DNA from: a virus
Length of the DNA stretch: 31,747 bases
Reading direction: 5' to 3' (one strand)
Virus record (IMG/VR): IMGVR_UViG_3300017748_000054
Coordinates: 1-31,747 of that record
The first letter of the stretch is position 1, and every line of letters begins with the position of its first letter. The notes under the pieces were generated by a model, which worked only from the letters and a program-made list of their open reading frames with translations, had not been told where the DNA came from and did not search any database. The position numbers were made by a program, and so were the translations under genes. This document shows, piece after piece, positions 12,771-20,522 of the stretch.

Positions 12771-13661
12771 TTAAGTTTCAATCTTTTTAAGCTTCATTCC
12801 ATAATTATTTACACCTTTTTTAGGTTTATAATCATCACGAAATATAAGTTTATTCTCTCGTTTAAATTTATTGTAATTCACATAATGATGATGTCTTCCA
12901 TATCTCCATACAAGTTTAGTTACATCTGGGTGTAATCTCATTTGCATATTAGATTTAGGAATAGTGCCTTCTTCAGCATAGAATTCGTCTGTATTTCCAC
13001 CTTTCAGCGTTTGTGTGTTGGCTTTCTCTTGAAGAAACACATTAAACTGTACAGTACACCAACCTTTCTTAAGTATTCGTAAAGACAAATCGGTATCTTC
13101 GTTATATCTTCCTCTCCATCTATCAGGTAAAGGTAAATCGTTTTTAATAAGGTTACATGAATATATTCTAGTATTTACTGTGAATGGTCCATATTGGTGT
13201 GCCCATTTATCAATTACAAAGAATGTATAGTTTGGTCCTGCCATACCTATATTTTTATATCTAGTAACAAAATCTTCCATTACCTTGAAAGGTGTTCCAT
13301 CTATACATTTTATTTCAAGATTATTTTGCCATCTTCTAAAACATTTAATGTTATCGTCCATTACCCAATGGTACTCATAACCTCTATCTATTGAATTTTG
13401 CCAAATAAAATTACGAGCGGCTCCGGGTCCCTTAGATTTTTTATCGCCTAAATCGTCACACGTATCATAATCGTCTTGGTATGTCTTATCTAACACGAGT
13501 ATATTCTTTTTCGGTACAACCTTCGCATACTCCGAGTACTCTTGTTCTTCAACAACTACTGTGTAAGGAACTTTCATTTCTTCTAAGGCTTTGATGGTAA
13601 GTCTACTATCTGCTCTGCCCTTAGATGGTATATAAATGGGAAATCTATTTTTAACTTTCAA
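12771..13661 (-). CDS. TET-associated-type glycosyltransferase (GT-A fold)
   Basis: This 296-residue protein opens with IYIPSKGRADSRLTIKALEE (about 9-28), then PYTVVVEEQEYSEYA. It has GPGAARNFIW (about 78-87), the nucleotide-sugar metal motif WVMDDN (about 99-104) and YNEDTDLSLRILKKGW (about 186-201). This set matches the phage TET-associated glycosyltransferases, which decorate oxidised pyrimidines in DNA. No TET/JBP dioxygenase or hydroxymethyl-pyrimidine synthase is visible here, so the acceptor is unknown. The only usable start is TTG at 13661, because an in-frame TAA lies five codons upstream. It overlaps the ParB-domain gene by 11 nt, implying co-translation. Confidence 0.8.
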   Translation of the reverse strand: MKVKNRFPIYIPSKGRADSRLTIKALEEMKVPYTVVVEEQEYSEYAKVVPKKNILVLDKTYQDDYDTCDDLGDKKSKGPGAARNFIWQNSIDRGYEYHWVMDDNIKCFRRWQNNLEIKCIDGTPFKVMEDFVTRYKNIGMAGPNYTFFVIDKWAHQYGPFTVNTRIYSCNLIKNDLPLPDRWRGRYNEDTDLSLRILKKGWCTVQFNVFLQEKANTQTLKGGNTDEFYAEEGTIPKSNMQMRLHPDVTKLVWRYGRHHHYVNYNKFKRENKLIFRDDYKPKKGVNNYGMKLKKIET

Positions 13662-14274
13662 AAGCCTTATCCTTTATTACATTCTTTTCAATCTTTGGGT
13701 ACCAAATATACTTTGTCTTATCTGTATAATCTTGTTTAATTAATTGAAAAAATTTATCCATTGAATCTTGGCTTACAAAATTAATAGTTAATGACCTAAA
13801 TGGTGATTGGTCTTCGTGGTCAAAAGCAGGCATATCTTGCCAATGTTCTTCATGTTCTAACCAATCTCTGGATTTATGGTCTGGTTGAAATACTATTGTT
13901 TCTAATTCTTGTTTCTCAAAACCTAAATCGTCAAGGTCAAAACCTATGTCGTTTAATAAATCCATTTCAAATTTCAGTAATTCGTAATCCCATGTACTAT
14001 CTTCTGATAGTCTATTATCAGCTATTCTATATGCTTTAACTTCATCTTCTTTCATATCAGTAGCAACATGAACTGGTACTTGTTTCATTTTTAGATGTTC
14101 TGCACCCATTAATCTTGTATGACCAACAATAACTACATAGTCTTTATCAACTACGATAGGTTGCCTCCAACCATATTTTTCTAAAGATTTGGCTATTTTT
14201 TCTCCATTTTGATTTTTACGAGGATTTTTTTCATATGGTTTGATTTTCTCAATATCAATCATTTCAATTTTCAT
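13651..14274 (-). CDS. ParB/Spo0J N-terminal-domain protein with C-terminal DNA-modification-associated domain
   Basis: The ParB-like domain (about 1-115) has IEKIKPYEKNPRKN, KYGWRQPIVVDKD, VGHTRLMGAEHL and YRIADNRLSE, the usual order for this fold. The C-terminal region (about 138-200) has HWQDMPAFDHEDQSPFRSL, then TDKTKYIWYP, a segment I recall in mobile-element proteins next to PSKGR-type glycosyltransferases, exactly as here. I chose the ATG at 14274 behind GAAGGGAAAG. The longer frame to 14319 reads inside the endolysin gene. It could be a DNA-binding or CTP/ATP-using factor of base modification, or a methylase partner. The role is inference. Confidence 0.82.
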   Translation of the reverse strand: MKIEMIDIEKIKPYEKNPRKNQNGEKIAKSLEKYGWRQPIVVDKDYVVIVGHTRLMGAEHLKMKQVPVHVATDMKEDEVKAYRIADNRLSEDSTWDYELLKFEMDLLNDIGFDLDDLGFEKQELETIVFQPDHKSRDWLEHEEHWQDMPAFDHEDQSPFRSLTINFVSQDSMDKFFQLIKQDYTDKTKYIWYPKIEKNVIKDKAFES

Positions 14275-14707
14275 TTTCTTTCCCTTCAATTTCCCATTTA
14301 TAAAATATGTGGTCATCAATTCTTAATACGTATTTTTTAACCTTTGCCCAACTAGGGTTTACATAATAAGCATGATAATGTGTTGCACCTTCAACAAAAT
14401 CACCAATATGTCCATTATAAACACCATTCGCAACGTGCATTGCATCTCTCCATGCTTTAGGCTCTTCGGGTTTATCGCTTTTCCCATCACAGTACCAACT
14501 AAATTGACATTTATTCTTAATAGGTATTGTAGGTTTATACTTATATGTTTCTGCTTGTTTGACTACATCACAAACTGTATTAGGGTATCTTTCATCTTTA
14601 ACCCTATTCATTACAACTTGTGCTACTGCTACTTGTCCCATAAAACTTTGATTTTTGGCTTCATGATAAACATTTAATGCAAGACATATTAATGATTCAG
14701 CTAACAT
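14264..14707 (-). CDS. SleB/CwlJ-type cell wall hydrolase (endolysin)
   Basis: This 147-residue single-domain enzyme corresponds to the Hydrolase_2 (SleB) family. It shows NVYHEAKNQ with the catalytic Glu16, GQVAVAQVVMNRV (about 24-36), YPNTVCDVV (about 41-49), CQFSWYCDG (about 67-75) and GATHYHAYYVNPSW (about 107-120), ending with HIFYKW. It cleaves peptidoglycan and is the best lysis enzyme in the window. There is no signal peptide or membrane anchor, so it would need a holin or other export route. Embedded between the replication and ParB genes, it overlaps the latter by 11 nt. Confidence 0.9.
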   Translation of the reverse strand: MLAESLICLALNVYHEAKNQSFMGQVAVAQVVMNRVKDERYPNTVCDVVKQAETYKYKPTIPIKNKCQFSWYCDGKSDKPEEPKAWRDAMHVANGVYNGHIGDFVEGATHYHAYYVNPSWAKVKKYVLRIDDHIFYKWEIEGKENEN

Positions 14708-17907: not shown

Positions 17908-18678
17908 ATGAAAAGTAATAATCCCTTCGCCATACATGGCATTAATCATTTATCACACAGTTCTCTTAATACTTGGCTTCAAGACCCTGCAAGATTTATT
18001 GCAGATAAACTCTTTGGTCTTAGAGATAAGGGTTCTGCATCTATGCATAGAGGTACATCAGTAGAATTTGGTTTGGCTCAAAAATATATAGATGAAGATT
18101 TCCAAATAGATAACTCTGTTATAGAAAATAAATTTAATCAATTATGTCAAGATAGCTTAATAGATGTAGAAGATGACAGAAGAACAAAAGAATTTGGTAT
18201 GTTAAAAGAATACTCTAATATGCTCAATCAACAATTTGATTATTCTGATATGGAAGATTACCAAACCAAAATAGAAGTTACCTTTGATGATTTGCCCGTA
18301 CCAATAATAGGTTATATAGATTTCATATTTAAAGATGTAATAGTAGACCTTAAGACTACTGCTAGAATGCCATCTAAACCTACAGATGCTAATAAAAGAC
18401 AAATGGCTATATATTCTCTAGCATATCCTAATTATAGAGCAGATGTATTTTATGCATCACCAAAAGCTAGTAATAAATTTATTATAGATGAAGAAGATAT
18501 TAAGAAACACCAAAAGCAAATACATTCTCTTGCTATTGGTTTGATGAAATTCCTTGCAATCAGTGATGATAAAGAGGAATTAGCTTCAATTATCCACCCT
18601 AATTACGACGCGTGGACTTGGAGTGAATATATGAAAGAGCAATCAAGCAAAAACATAAAACAGTGGAGTTATGTATGA
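17908..18678 (+). CDS. RecB/Cas4-like PD-(D/E)XK exonuclease
   Basis: This 256-residue protein has LSHSSLNTWLQDPARFIADK (about 15-34), the start typical of RecB/Cas4-family nucleases, then HRGTSVEFGL (about 47-56), GYIDFIF (D138), VIVDLKTT (D147, K149) and the family signature QMAIYSLAY (Q165xxxY169). It should degrade one strand of duplex ends to give single strands for the annealing protein encoded next. There is no Cys cluster of the Cas4 type. It starts the rightward operon behind AGAGGT, and its TGA overlaps the next ATG as ATGA. Confidence 0.87.
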   Translation: MKSNNPFAIHGINHLSHSSLNTWLQDPARFIADKLFGLRDKGSASMHRGTSVEFGLAQKYIDEDFQIDNSVIENKFNQLCQDSLIDVEDDRRTKEFGMLKEYSNMLNQQFDYSDMEDYQTKIEVTFDDLPVPIIGYIDFIFKDVIVDLKTTARMPSKPTDANKRQMAIYSLAYPNYRADVFYASPKASNKFIIDEEDIKKHQKQIHSLAIGLMKFLAISDDKEELASIIHPNYDAWTWSEYMKEQSSKNIKQWSYV

Positions 18679-19238
18679 ACGAAGAAAATATAGAACAACC
18701 TAAAAAGGTTGAAGAAGAAGTTAAGGCTCAAAAGAAAGAGCCAAAGGTTCAAAAGATAGAACCAAGCAAAACGTTAGTTGATGCACTTAACAGATTTCAA
18801 GAATTAAATATAAGTGCATTAAAATCTACAGATAATACATTTTTTAAGAGTACCTATGCTGATTTAACATCTGTTATTGATGCAGTAAATCAGGGTGCTA
18901 AATATGGATTATGTTTCACACAACAAGTTCAATATAAGAATATGGTTCTTGATAAACAAATGGTAGATAATTTAAAAGATGGCACTACCAAAACTACTAG
19001 TGGTCAAGTTATCATTAGGGATATATGGGTAAATACTACCATTTATCATACTATAGACGATAAAACTATAGAATGTGATGTGCCAGTTTTAATTAACAAT
19101 GCAGAGAAAGATAACCCACAGAAAATGGGTTCTGCCATAACCTATGCAAAAAGGTATGGTTTACAAGCATTATTTGGTCTTGGTCAAGATGATGATGCAA
19201 ACGAAGCAACTGGTAACAAGGGAGTTAAAAATGGATAA
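18675..19238 (+). CDS. erf: ERF-family single-strand annealing protein
   Basis: This 187-residue protein has a Lys/Glu-rich leader (1-32), then NTFFKSTYADLTSVIDAV (about 54-71) and the strongest ERF block NPQKMGSAITYAKRYGLQAL (about 147-166), followed by FGLGQDDDANEA. ERF proteins coat and anneal single-stranded DNA in phage recombination. I chose the ATG at 18675, preceded by GGAG at 6 nt. It lies between the exonuclease and the SSB-like gene, forming a Red-like cassette. Confidence 0.9.
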   Translation: MNEENIEQPKKVEEEVKAQKKEPKVQKIEPSKTLVDALNRFQELNISALKSTDNTFFKSTYADLTSVIDAVNQGAKYGLCFTQQVQYKNMVLDKQMVDNLKDGTTKTTSGQVIIRDIWVNTTIYHTIDDKTIECDVPVLINNAEKDNPQKMGSAITYAKRYGLQALFGLGQDDDANEATGNKGVKNG

Positions 19239-19653
19239 TAACACAAAGCAATACGACGAAACTAATCGTGGTGTTTTATTTAACATAAGCGAAGATTGGT
19301 CATTAACCCAACAAGGCAAAATAAATATTAATGGTGAATCATTAAGAGTTATAGGTGTCAAAAGGCTCAATAAAGAGGGAAAAGAAATAATTGAACTCTA
19401 TAGGGCAATGGGTACATTGAAAAAAGCAGATAAAAATGGTGAGAAAGACCCAGATGCAAAAGGTGTTGTAAATGCCCTTGTTGATAAAGGTGCTATGATT
19501 ATATCTGCATGGAAAGAAAATAGTGAACGAGGTAATAAATATATATCGTTAAGACTTCGTGAATTTTCAAACGATAATCCAAATCAACAACAGTCTAATA
19601 ATAATCAATCAACTTCATCTACTGATGAAATTGAAGACATTGATTTATGGTAA
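19231..19653 (+). CDS. SSB-like protein with acidic C-terminal tail (140 aa)
   Basis: The body (about 12-111) is predicted beta-rich: RGVLFNISEDWSLTQQGKI, SLRVIGVKRL, IIELYRAMGTL, GAMIISAWKE and YISLRLRE. A low-complexity Asn/Gln/Ser linker and the end TDEIEDIDLW follow. An OB-like core, Q/N-rich linker and acidic tail with a terminal aromatic is the architecture of bacterial SSB and T7 gp2.5. It directly follows ERF (8-nt overlap) and has GGGAG before the ATG at 19231. No clear SSB sequence motif is visible, so the function is inferred from architecture and context. Confidence 0.75.
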   Translation: MDNNTKQYDETNRGVLFNISEDWSLTQQGKININGESLRVIGVKRLNKEGKEIIELYRAMGTLKKADKNGEKDPDAKGVVNALVDKGAMIISAWKENSERGNKYISLRLREFSNDNPNQQQSNNNQSTSSTDEIEDIDLW

Positions 19654-19664
19654 GGGAGGTTTAA

Positions 19665-19880
19665 ATGCCAAAAGTAACACAATATGAAAATGTCAAAAAT
19701 TATTTAGAACAAGGTAATAAAATTACACCTATTGAAGCCTTGAATAAGTTTGGCAGTTTTAGATTAAGTGCAATTATATTTAATTTAAGACAAAATGGTT
19801 ATCCAATTAAAACTCATAATAAAACTGAAAATGGTAAAACATTTGCAGAATATGAATTAACTTACGATAAAACAAATTGA
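19665..19880 (+). CDS. small winged-HTH protein (71 aa)
   Basis: This 71-residue protein matches a small helix-turn-helix family frequent in phage recombination and replication operons: YLEQGNKITPIEALNKFGSF (about 13-32), RLSAIIFNLRQNGYPIKTH (about 33-51), then a hairpin wing with GKTFAEYEL (about 58-66). It may regulate the operon or assist replication. The ribosome site is GGGAGG, and the end couples to the next gene through a TTGA overlap. Confidence 0.75.
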   Translation: MPKVTQYENVKNYLEQGNKITPIEALNKFGSFRLSAIIFNLRQNGYPIKTHNKTENGKTFAEYELTYDKTN

Positions 19881-20206
19881 AACCAATAATTAAACAAAAG
19901 AAGATAAAGAACAAAAAATTTTTAGAATATGTTTCTAATCAAGAATGTTGTTTATCTTCTTACTCTACTTATCCTTGTAATGGTAATGTTCAAGCACATC
20001 ATTTGTTAAAACCATATGAGGGTGCAAGAGGTATGGGTATGAGGTCAAGTGATAATAATGCAGTTCCTCTATGTTATTCACATCATGCACAATTACATGA
20101 CAGTTTTGGTAATGAAGATATGTTTTGGTTGTTATTTAGATTATCAGAAGATTATGGCAGAAAGACTGCAAAAAAATACTGGGAGAAATTCAATGCGAAA
20201 AATTGA
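19877..20206 (+). CDS. HNH-type nuclease-like protein (109 aa), TTG start
   Basis: The zinc/HNH pattern is ECCLSSYSTYPCNG (Cys24/25, Cys34), QAHHLLKPYEGARGMGM (His41/42), SSDNNAVPLCYSHHAQLHD (Asp59, Cys66, His69/70, His74). It resembles the DUF968/HNH group in recombination cassettes, with a role in processing branched DNA. The start must be TTG at 19877: an in-frame TAA lies at 19868 and the next Met is after the His motif. Translation is probably coupled to the preceding stop (TTGA overlap), as no Shine-Dalgarno is visible. Confidence 0.8.
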   Translation: MKPIIKQKKIKNKKFLEYVSNQECCLSSYSTYPCNGNVQAHHLLKPYEGARGMGMRSSDNNAVPLCYSHHAQLHDSFGNEDMFWLLFRLSEDYGRKTAKKYWEKFNAKN

Positions 20207-20522
20207 CGAAGAAGATATACATAAAGCCGTTGCATGGTTAAGAGATACGGCACAACATTGTGCAGAGGCTAGAGCAACAAGACTTTATTTAGATGCTTTT
20301 ACTAAATCTTTAAAAGCAATTTTAATGAGTAAATATAACGAACTGCCTATTTCTGCTCAAGAACGTGAAGCATATTCAGATGACGAATATGTCAAACATT
20401 TGAAAGCATTAAGAATAGCAGTTGAAAGAGACGAAAAAAATAGATACCTTAGAGAAAGTGCTATGGTCAAAATAGAGACATGGAGAACACAAGAGGCTAA
20501 TTTAAGAGCTATCAAACTTTAA
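20193..20522 (+). CDS. helical hypothetical protein (109 aa)
   Basis: I chose the ATG at 20193 behind GGGAGAAATTC. Upstream in-frame Mets lie inside the HNH gene and add an unlikely hydrophobic leader. The product is highly charged and helical: VAWLRDTAQHCAEARATRLY, DAFTKSLKAILMSKY, EREAYSDDEYVKHLKALRIA, then KIETWRTQEANLRAIKL. I recognise this as a small family accompanying phage recombination genes, without a known activity. It overlaps the HNH gene by 14 nt. The 20523-20608 gap is AT-rich with nothing clearly identifiable. Confidence 0.75.
   Translation: MRKIDEEDIHKAVAWLRDTAQHCAEARATRLYLDAFTKSLKAILMSKYNELPISAQEREAYSDDEYVKHLKALRIAVERDEKNRYLRESAMVKIETWRTQEANLRAIKL

Follow-up and report, generated by a model that had tools for sequence, protein, structure and literature searches.

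This locus raises the question of whether a phage recombination cassette carries its own single-strand DNA-binding protein (SSB) in the form of a 140-residue protein, here called P0001, encoded directly behind an annealing protein, and, if it does, whether the body of that protein is built like an OB-fold SSB. The window, by which we mean the whole stretch of DNA analyzed, is a 31,747-base virus record, and matches in it to a portal protein, a large terminase and a DNA ejection protein (PHROGs) suggest a tailed, probably short-tailed phage. A preliminary description of the DNA had set out a cassette running from an exonuclease through an ERF annealing protein, the 140-aa protein, a helix-turn-helix (HTH) protein and an HNH-type nuclease to a helical protein, and when the ORF coordinates were checked the six genes were found in that order, all on the + strand:

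17908..18678, + strand: PD-(D/E)XK exonuclease, 256 aa, opening the cassette (Pfam PDDEXK_1, 1.2e-8; phrog_69 exonuclease, 1.2e-9; phrog_10230, 1.3e-21)
18675..19238, + strand: ERF-type single-strand annealing protein, 187 aa, starting within the exonuclease stop (Pfam ERF, 2.5e-17; phrog_155 Erf-like, 1.5e-27)
19231..19653, + strand: SSB-like protein P0001, 140 aa, with two predicted tandem beta units, a flexible linker and an acidic Trp-ended tail (phrog_7364, phrog_18154; AlphaFold2 model)
19654..19659, + strand: Shine-Dalgarno sequence GGGAGG before the HTH gene (sequence)
19665..19880, + strand: winged helix-turn-helix protein, 71 aa (Pfam HTH_39, 8.1e-10; phrog_4973, 1.5e-18)
19877..20206, + strand: HNH-type nuclease, 109 aa, TTG start (Pfam DUF968, 1.5e-9; phrog_96 HNH endonuclease, 9.6e-9)
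20193..20522, + strand: small helical protein, 109 aa (Pfam Timeless PAB, 4e-4, under the curated cut-off)

Adjoining ORFs either overlap by 4-14 nt (4 nt for exonuclease and ERF, 8 nt for ERF and the 140-aa gene, with overlaps also among the HTH, HNH and helical genes) or have a strong Shine-Dalgarno sequence in front, and the arrangement is operon-like. The helical ORF gave zero matches in PHROGs, and its below-cut-off match to Timeless PAB was the sole notable one in Pfam. A similar-looking ORF stands at the cassette end in a distant relative (contig L045, 7026-7424), and both contain the motif ISAQEREAYA. A counterpart of the HNH nuclease also lies behind the family member in L045.

P0001 matches two PHROGs families, phrog_7364 (1.4e-6, residues 6-129) and phrog_18154 (3.3e-6, residues 59-119). 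Both are labelled 'single strand DNA binding protein', so the SSB idea for this family is already known and is not new here. The family is large and found mostly in marine phages; IMG/VR scans gave 11, then 30, then 264 relatives, with the best 80 of the 264 kept. All 21 members scanned matched phrog_18154 (best 9.9e-9), and 17 of the 21 matched phrog_7364. In the record of phage VpV262 the label is based on the phrase 'similar to single strand DNA binding protein C-terminus' alone, so that it says little there about the body, and because it derives from the C-terminus there may be some circularity in the PHROGs label. The proteins of these two families (phiVC8 p31, VpV262 ORF24) have a body homologous to that of P0001 and a tail of the same kind; phiVC8 p31 shares the two units, and the C72C1 member sits directly behind a Sak annealing protein. 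On the other hand, P0001 matches them only at about 1e-6, and several of them combine a single unit with a canonical DDDIPF end, whereas in P0001 the first unit has diverged and the tip ends in Trp.

The core had been described as lacking an obvious SSB sequence, and indeed the Pfam SSB profile (PF00436) gave no match at E<=1 in the 21 members. Homology of P0001 to T7 gp2.5 was found neither in Pfam nor in PDB sequences nor among the listed PDB folds, the two-unit family was absent from the bacterial genomes scanned, and the literature searched yielded no family member with an experimental DNA-binding test. Other candidate relatives were rejected: Pfam Cas9_PI_C (0.016) and several PDB chains (RecA fusions, BcR103A, FUS) match at chance level, and the match in Moraxella phage Mcat is to a CI-repressor-like gene that is no relative of P0001.

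The resemblance to SSBs is most direct at the C-terminus, which comprises two segments:

19567..19623, + strand: N/Q/S-rich linker, residues 113-131 (sequence; low model confidence at residues 114-116)
19624..19650, + strand: acidic SSB-type tail DEIEDIDLW, residues 132-140 (tail statistics; DDDIPF/DDEIPF ends of relatives)

A beta-rich core, an N/Q-rich linker and a TDEIEDIDLW tail had been reported for this protein, and all three are there. The reported likeness of the tail to SSB tails goes far beyond chance. Under a rule that asks for an aromatic final residue and at least three acidic residues among the eight before it, the pass rate is 70 of 87 for family ORFs and 20 of 1704 for the remaining ORFs in these loci (Fisher p 1.9e-90, uncorrected for relatedness), and several of these background ORFs are themselves recombination-linked or have an SSB-type tip. 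After dereplication at 75% identity, 24 of 29 family ORFs still pass, and 28 of 29 do so with at least two acidic residues. Near relatives end in EDIDLW, LEDIDW, LEDLDW or NDEIPW and distant ones in DDDIPF, DDEIPF or DDKIPF, and the DDDIPF and DDEIPF ends are the bacterial SSB tip. As in bacterial SSB (PF00436), the acidic, aromatic-ended tip of P0001 follows a flexible polar linker, and relatives carry exactly DDDIPF; the P0001 clade differs in having Trp where bacterial SSB has Phe. The acidic tail of T7 gp2.5, like that of P0001, has an aromatic residue at its end. Its body is an OB fold (PMC9917605).

An apparently unrelated protein of ~144 aa (L066, 3668-4099; also L067 and L068) ends in AKPLDDEIPF, an SSB-type tail on another body; its match is confined to the tail of P0005, and it was set aside as a different protein. 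A phrog_7838-like recombination gene (L111, 5327-5770, with similar genes in L091, L097 and L110) encodes a protein whose own tail is acidic and closes with Tyr (NDEDDY), and genes of this kind lie upstream of some family members.

An SSB usually has an OB-fold body, and such a fold had been implied for 19231-19653. An OB barrel that has diverged past sequence and fold recognition would accommodate both the all-beta core and the SSB-type tail. We modeled residues 1-116 with AlphaFold2 from a 59-row alignment (pLDDT 85.3, pTM 0.71), a first model from 21 close relatives (pLDDT 50) having been dropped in its favor. The body is predicted to consist of eight strands, which, judged on strand order, form two similar four-strand sets in matching order:

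19267..19407, + strand: P0001 unit 1, residues 13-59, predicted strands 13-16, 24-33, 36-46 and 52-58 (AlphaFold2)
19411..19566, + strand: P0001 unit 2, residues 61-112, predicted strands 61-65, 76-81, 88-97 and 103-111 (AlphaFold2)

A Foldseek search of the PDB gave no match to this model at E<=1e-3, the best being a PR-10 allergen (E 0.036, TM 0.27), and no OB protein stood among the best 50 fold matches listed. Together with the unmatched Pfam SSB profile and the single-unit relatives, which have about 50 structured residues, this confident two-repeat model argues against the OB barrel, and we consider a divergent OB-fold SSB quite unlikely. The core shows no obvious OB fold in the prediction and probably has a non-OB architecture, a difference from bacterial SSB that adds to the lack of a sequence match between the two bodies. 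As modeled, the body resembles no solved structure, and neither its sequence nor its fold matched any solved DNA-binding protein. In a search of viral models the best matches were two unnamed proteins (9.6e-8, TM 0.75), and further ones covered 54-58 columns at 1.4-2.4 A, fitting one unit. Of the divergent SSB that had been proposed, the SSB-like cassette member and the SSB-type tail are supported, with the DDDIPF ends of relatives, the PHROGs label and the lack of a canonical SSB in the 30 contigs considered below in their favor; the OB fold is not supported.

Relatives with one unit, 80-113 aa long, are encoded by phages C72C1, VpV262 and PMBT28 and by IMG/VR contigs, and comparison through these intermediates supports an internal duplication as the origin of the P0001 body. 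A profile of the single-unit proteins matches unit 2 (3.4e-18) and, less strongly, unit 1 (1.6e-5), scores that 0 of 200 column shuffles reached for either unit. Against the PMBT28 protein, Z was 8.4 for unit 1 of the window protein (0/2000 shuffles) and 5.3 for its unit 2 (1/2000), and the two units of a relative, L070, scored Z 16.8 and 6.1. The strong unit 1 score owes part to a common N-terminus (MAEYDNTN). The phiVC8 protein shows a direct match between its own two units (Z 7.3, 0/2000 shuffles). The two halves of P0001 gave no significant match when compared directly by simple alignment and a marginal one by profile (0.002, 1/200 shuffles), and the direct unit-against-unit test of the B. 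vietnamiensis protein also fails (106/2000 shuffles). Because these own-half comparisons fail, the duplication rests on the intermediates.

Gene neighborhoods were compared in 30 contigs with a family gene, which may be fragments and include some near-duplicates. ERF was matched in 19 of the 30, and in all 19 the family gene closely follows it in the same orientation; PDDEXK_1 was matched in 12. Among contigs with no ERF match, L045 has a Pfam Sak annealing protein (7.7e-30) in its place, and in L098 and L147 the family gene is preceded by a YqaJ exonuclease together with a phrog_7838 gene. Pfam SSB was matched in 0 of the 30 contigs and in 10 of 14 control genomes; since the contigs may be incomplete, the missing second SSB is no proof. 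In PMBT28 and phiVC8 the family gene adjoins DNA polymerase genes. These positions bear on the proposal that P0001 is a regulator or structural adaptor with no role on single-stranded DNA, its acidic, aromatic tail having arisen by chance or to serve other partners. That an HTH gene comes next in the cassette, and that DUF736, to which the body can be linked, has no known function, would fit such a role, but literal DDDIPF tips throughout the family and the repeated position behind annealing proteins make chance unlikely, and we regard this proposal as very improbable.

The link to DUF736 came from a tblastn search with a family member, which returned plasmid proteins of that name (best named match 9e-5). 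A profile built from six plasmid proteins matches unit 2 at 5e-17, a value that overstates the link to Pfam DUF736 because the profile mixes short DUF736 and two-unit proteins and was assembled from matches chosen by similarity. Against Pfam DUF736 itself (PF05284) P0001 scored 14.8 bits (E 0.026), under the cut-off of 22.1 bits, and the best of 21 relatives (E 1.2e-3) was also below the Pfam cut-off. The alignment of DUF736 with unit 2 extends over about 50 residues (APDY...AWK-x-S...Y-x-S). Two-unit relatives on plasmids have DEDIPF or DDEIPF tails, as in the phage family, the Caballeronia and Paraburkholderia proteins ending in EDEDIPF and EDDEIPF; the short DUF736 proteins, unlike P0001, have no acidic tail. 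Two-unit, SSB-tailed proteins (DEDIPF, DDEIPF) annotated as DUF736 or hypothetical are encoded on large Burkholderiaceae plasmids (L155, 1273-1770; L160, 1270-1770). DUF736 proteins occur on plasmids and integrative elements, and were present on all Mesorhizobium elements compared in one study (PMC8627217). A PF05284 search gave zero matches in one Verrucomicrobia genome and zero in control genomes too, and hence is uninformative.

Given that tail-less DUF736 relatives exist on plasmids, that the body has no recognized DNA-binding fold, and that the likeness to SSBs is best supported at the tail, the VpV262 label having come from it alone, P0001 could instead be an adaptor or decoy whose body binds a phage protein, for example ERF or the exonuclease, while its tail engages or competes for host enzymes that bind SSB. 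This we judge unlikely: the body has a net positive charge, the gene lies between annealing and nuclease genes and, in PMBT28 and phiVC8, beside DNA polymerase genes, and no other Pfam SSB occurs in the 30 contigs.

It is likely that P0001 has an SSB-like function, and we favor the reading that the phage uses it as an SSB-like protein of its own in single-strand-annealing recombination and in replication, where it would coat single-stranded DNA and recruit ERF through its tail. We infer both that P0001 binds single-stranded DNA and that its tail contacts partners and loads the annealing protein. The exonuclease would resect duplex ends, and the exposed strand would be coated by the positively charged two-unit body, putatively a fused pseudo-dimer of the single unit found in other phages. 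The flexible, acidic, Trp-ended tail would then recruit the ERF annealing protein much as the bacterial SSB tip does, and perhaps further phage or host partners. Such a role fits because the beta core carries a charge of +6 (residues 24-111) and the tip -5, and because the gene stands among exonuclease, annealing and nuclease genes.

The closest precedent in print is phage HK620, whose SSB needs its final six residues (NDYPPF) both for Sak4 to bind single-stranded DNA coated with it and for annealing to be stimulated (PMC5928155). As in the window, this system pairs a phage SSB-like gene encoding an acidic, aromatic-ended tail with an annealing partner (PMC5928155); the HK620 SSB has been tested experimentally with Sak4 as its partner, whereas P0001 is known from sequence and the annealing gene beside it is ERF. 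Polymerase-SSB pairs (PMC10061031) were dropped as a lead, those SSBs being OB folds.

What the present analysis adds to the known family is an architecture of two units that is probably non-OB, a tip that ends in Trp and a connection to DUF736. A broader proposal, to which we give somewhat less than an even chance, is that one or two four-strand units define a widespread non-OB class of single-strand DNA-binding proteins in marine phages and DUF736-type plasmid proteins, perhaps also integrative elements, in which the SSB tail is convergent and recruits annealing proteins and the two-unit form is a fused pseudo-dimer. Phage proteins of this kind are labelled SSB on little evidence from the body. 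If the body binds single-stranded DNA, it would represent an SSB architecture unlike any solved so far, point to a function for DUF736 that can be tested, and provide recombineering with annealing proteins and SSBs that are matched to each other; should it fail to bind, the SSB label is wrong in many phages. A familiar job, the coating of single-stranded DNA and the recruitment of partners, may thus be done by an unfamiliar fold.

Two further observations concern the genomes that carry family members. In PMBT28 (L153, 3001-5377) the single-unit member has DNA polymerase I on one side and, on the other, an adenylosuccinate synthetase gene with a nucleotide pyrophosphohydrolase after it. These neighbors look like the 2-aminoadenine (Z) genome pathway, which is also known in phiVC8, a phage with a two-unit member. 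In the window itself, an ORF on the - strand (12771-13661) matches phrog_842 (beta-glucosyl-HMC-alpha-glucosyltransferase) at 1.2e-46 and adjoins a ParB-like gene (13651-14319), and a role of this ORF in DNA modification is possible.
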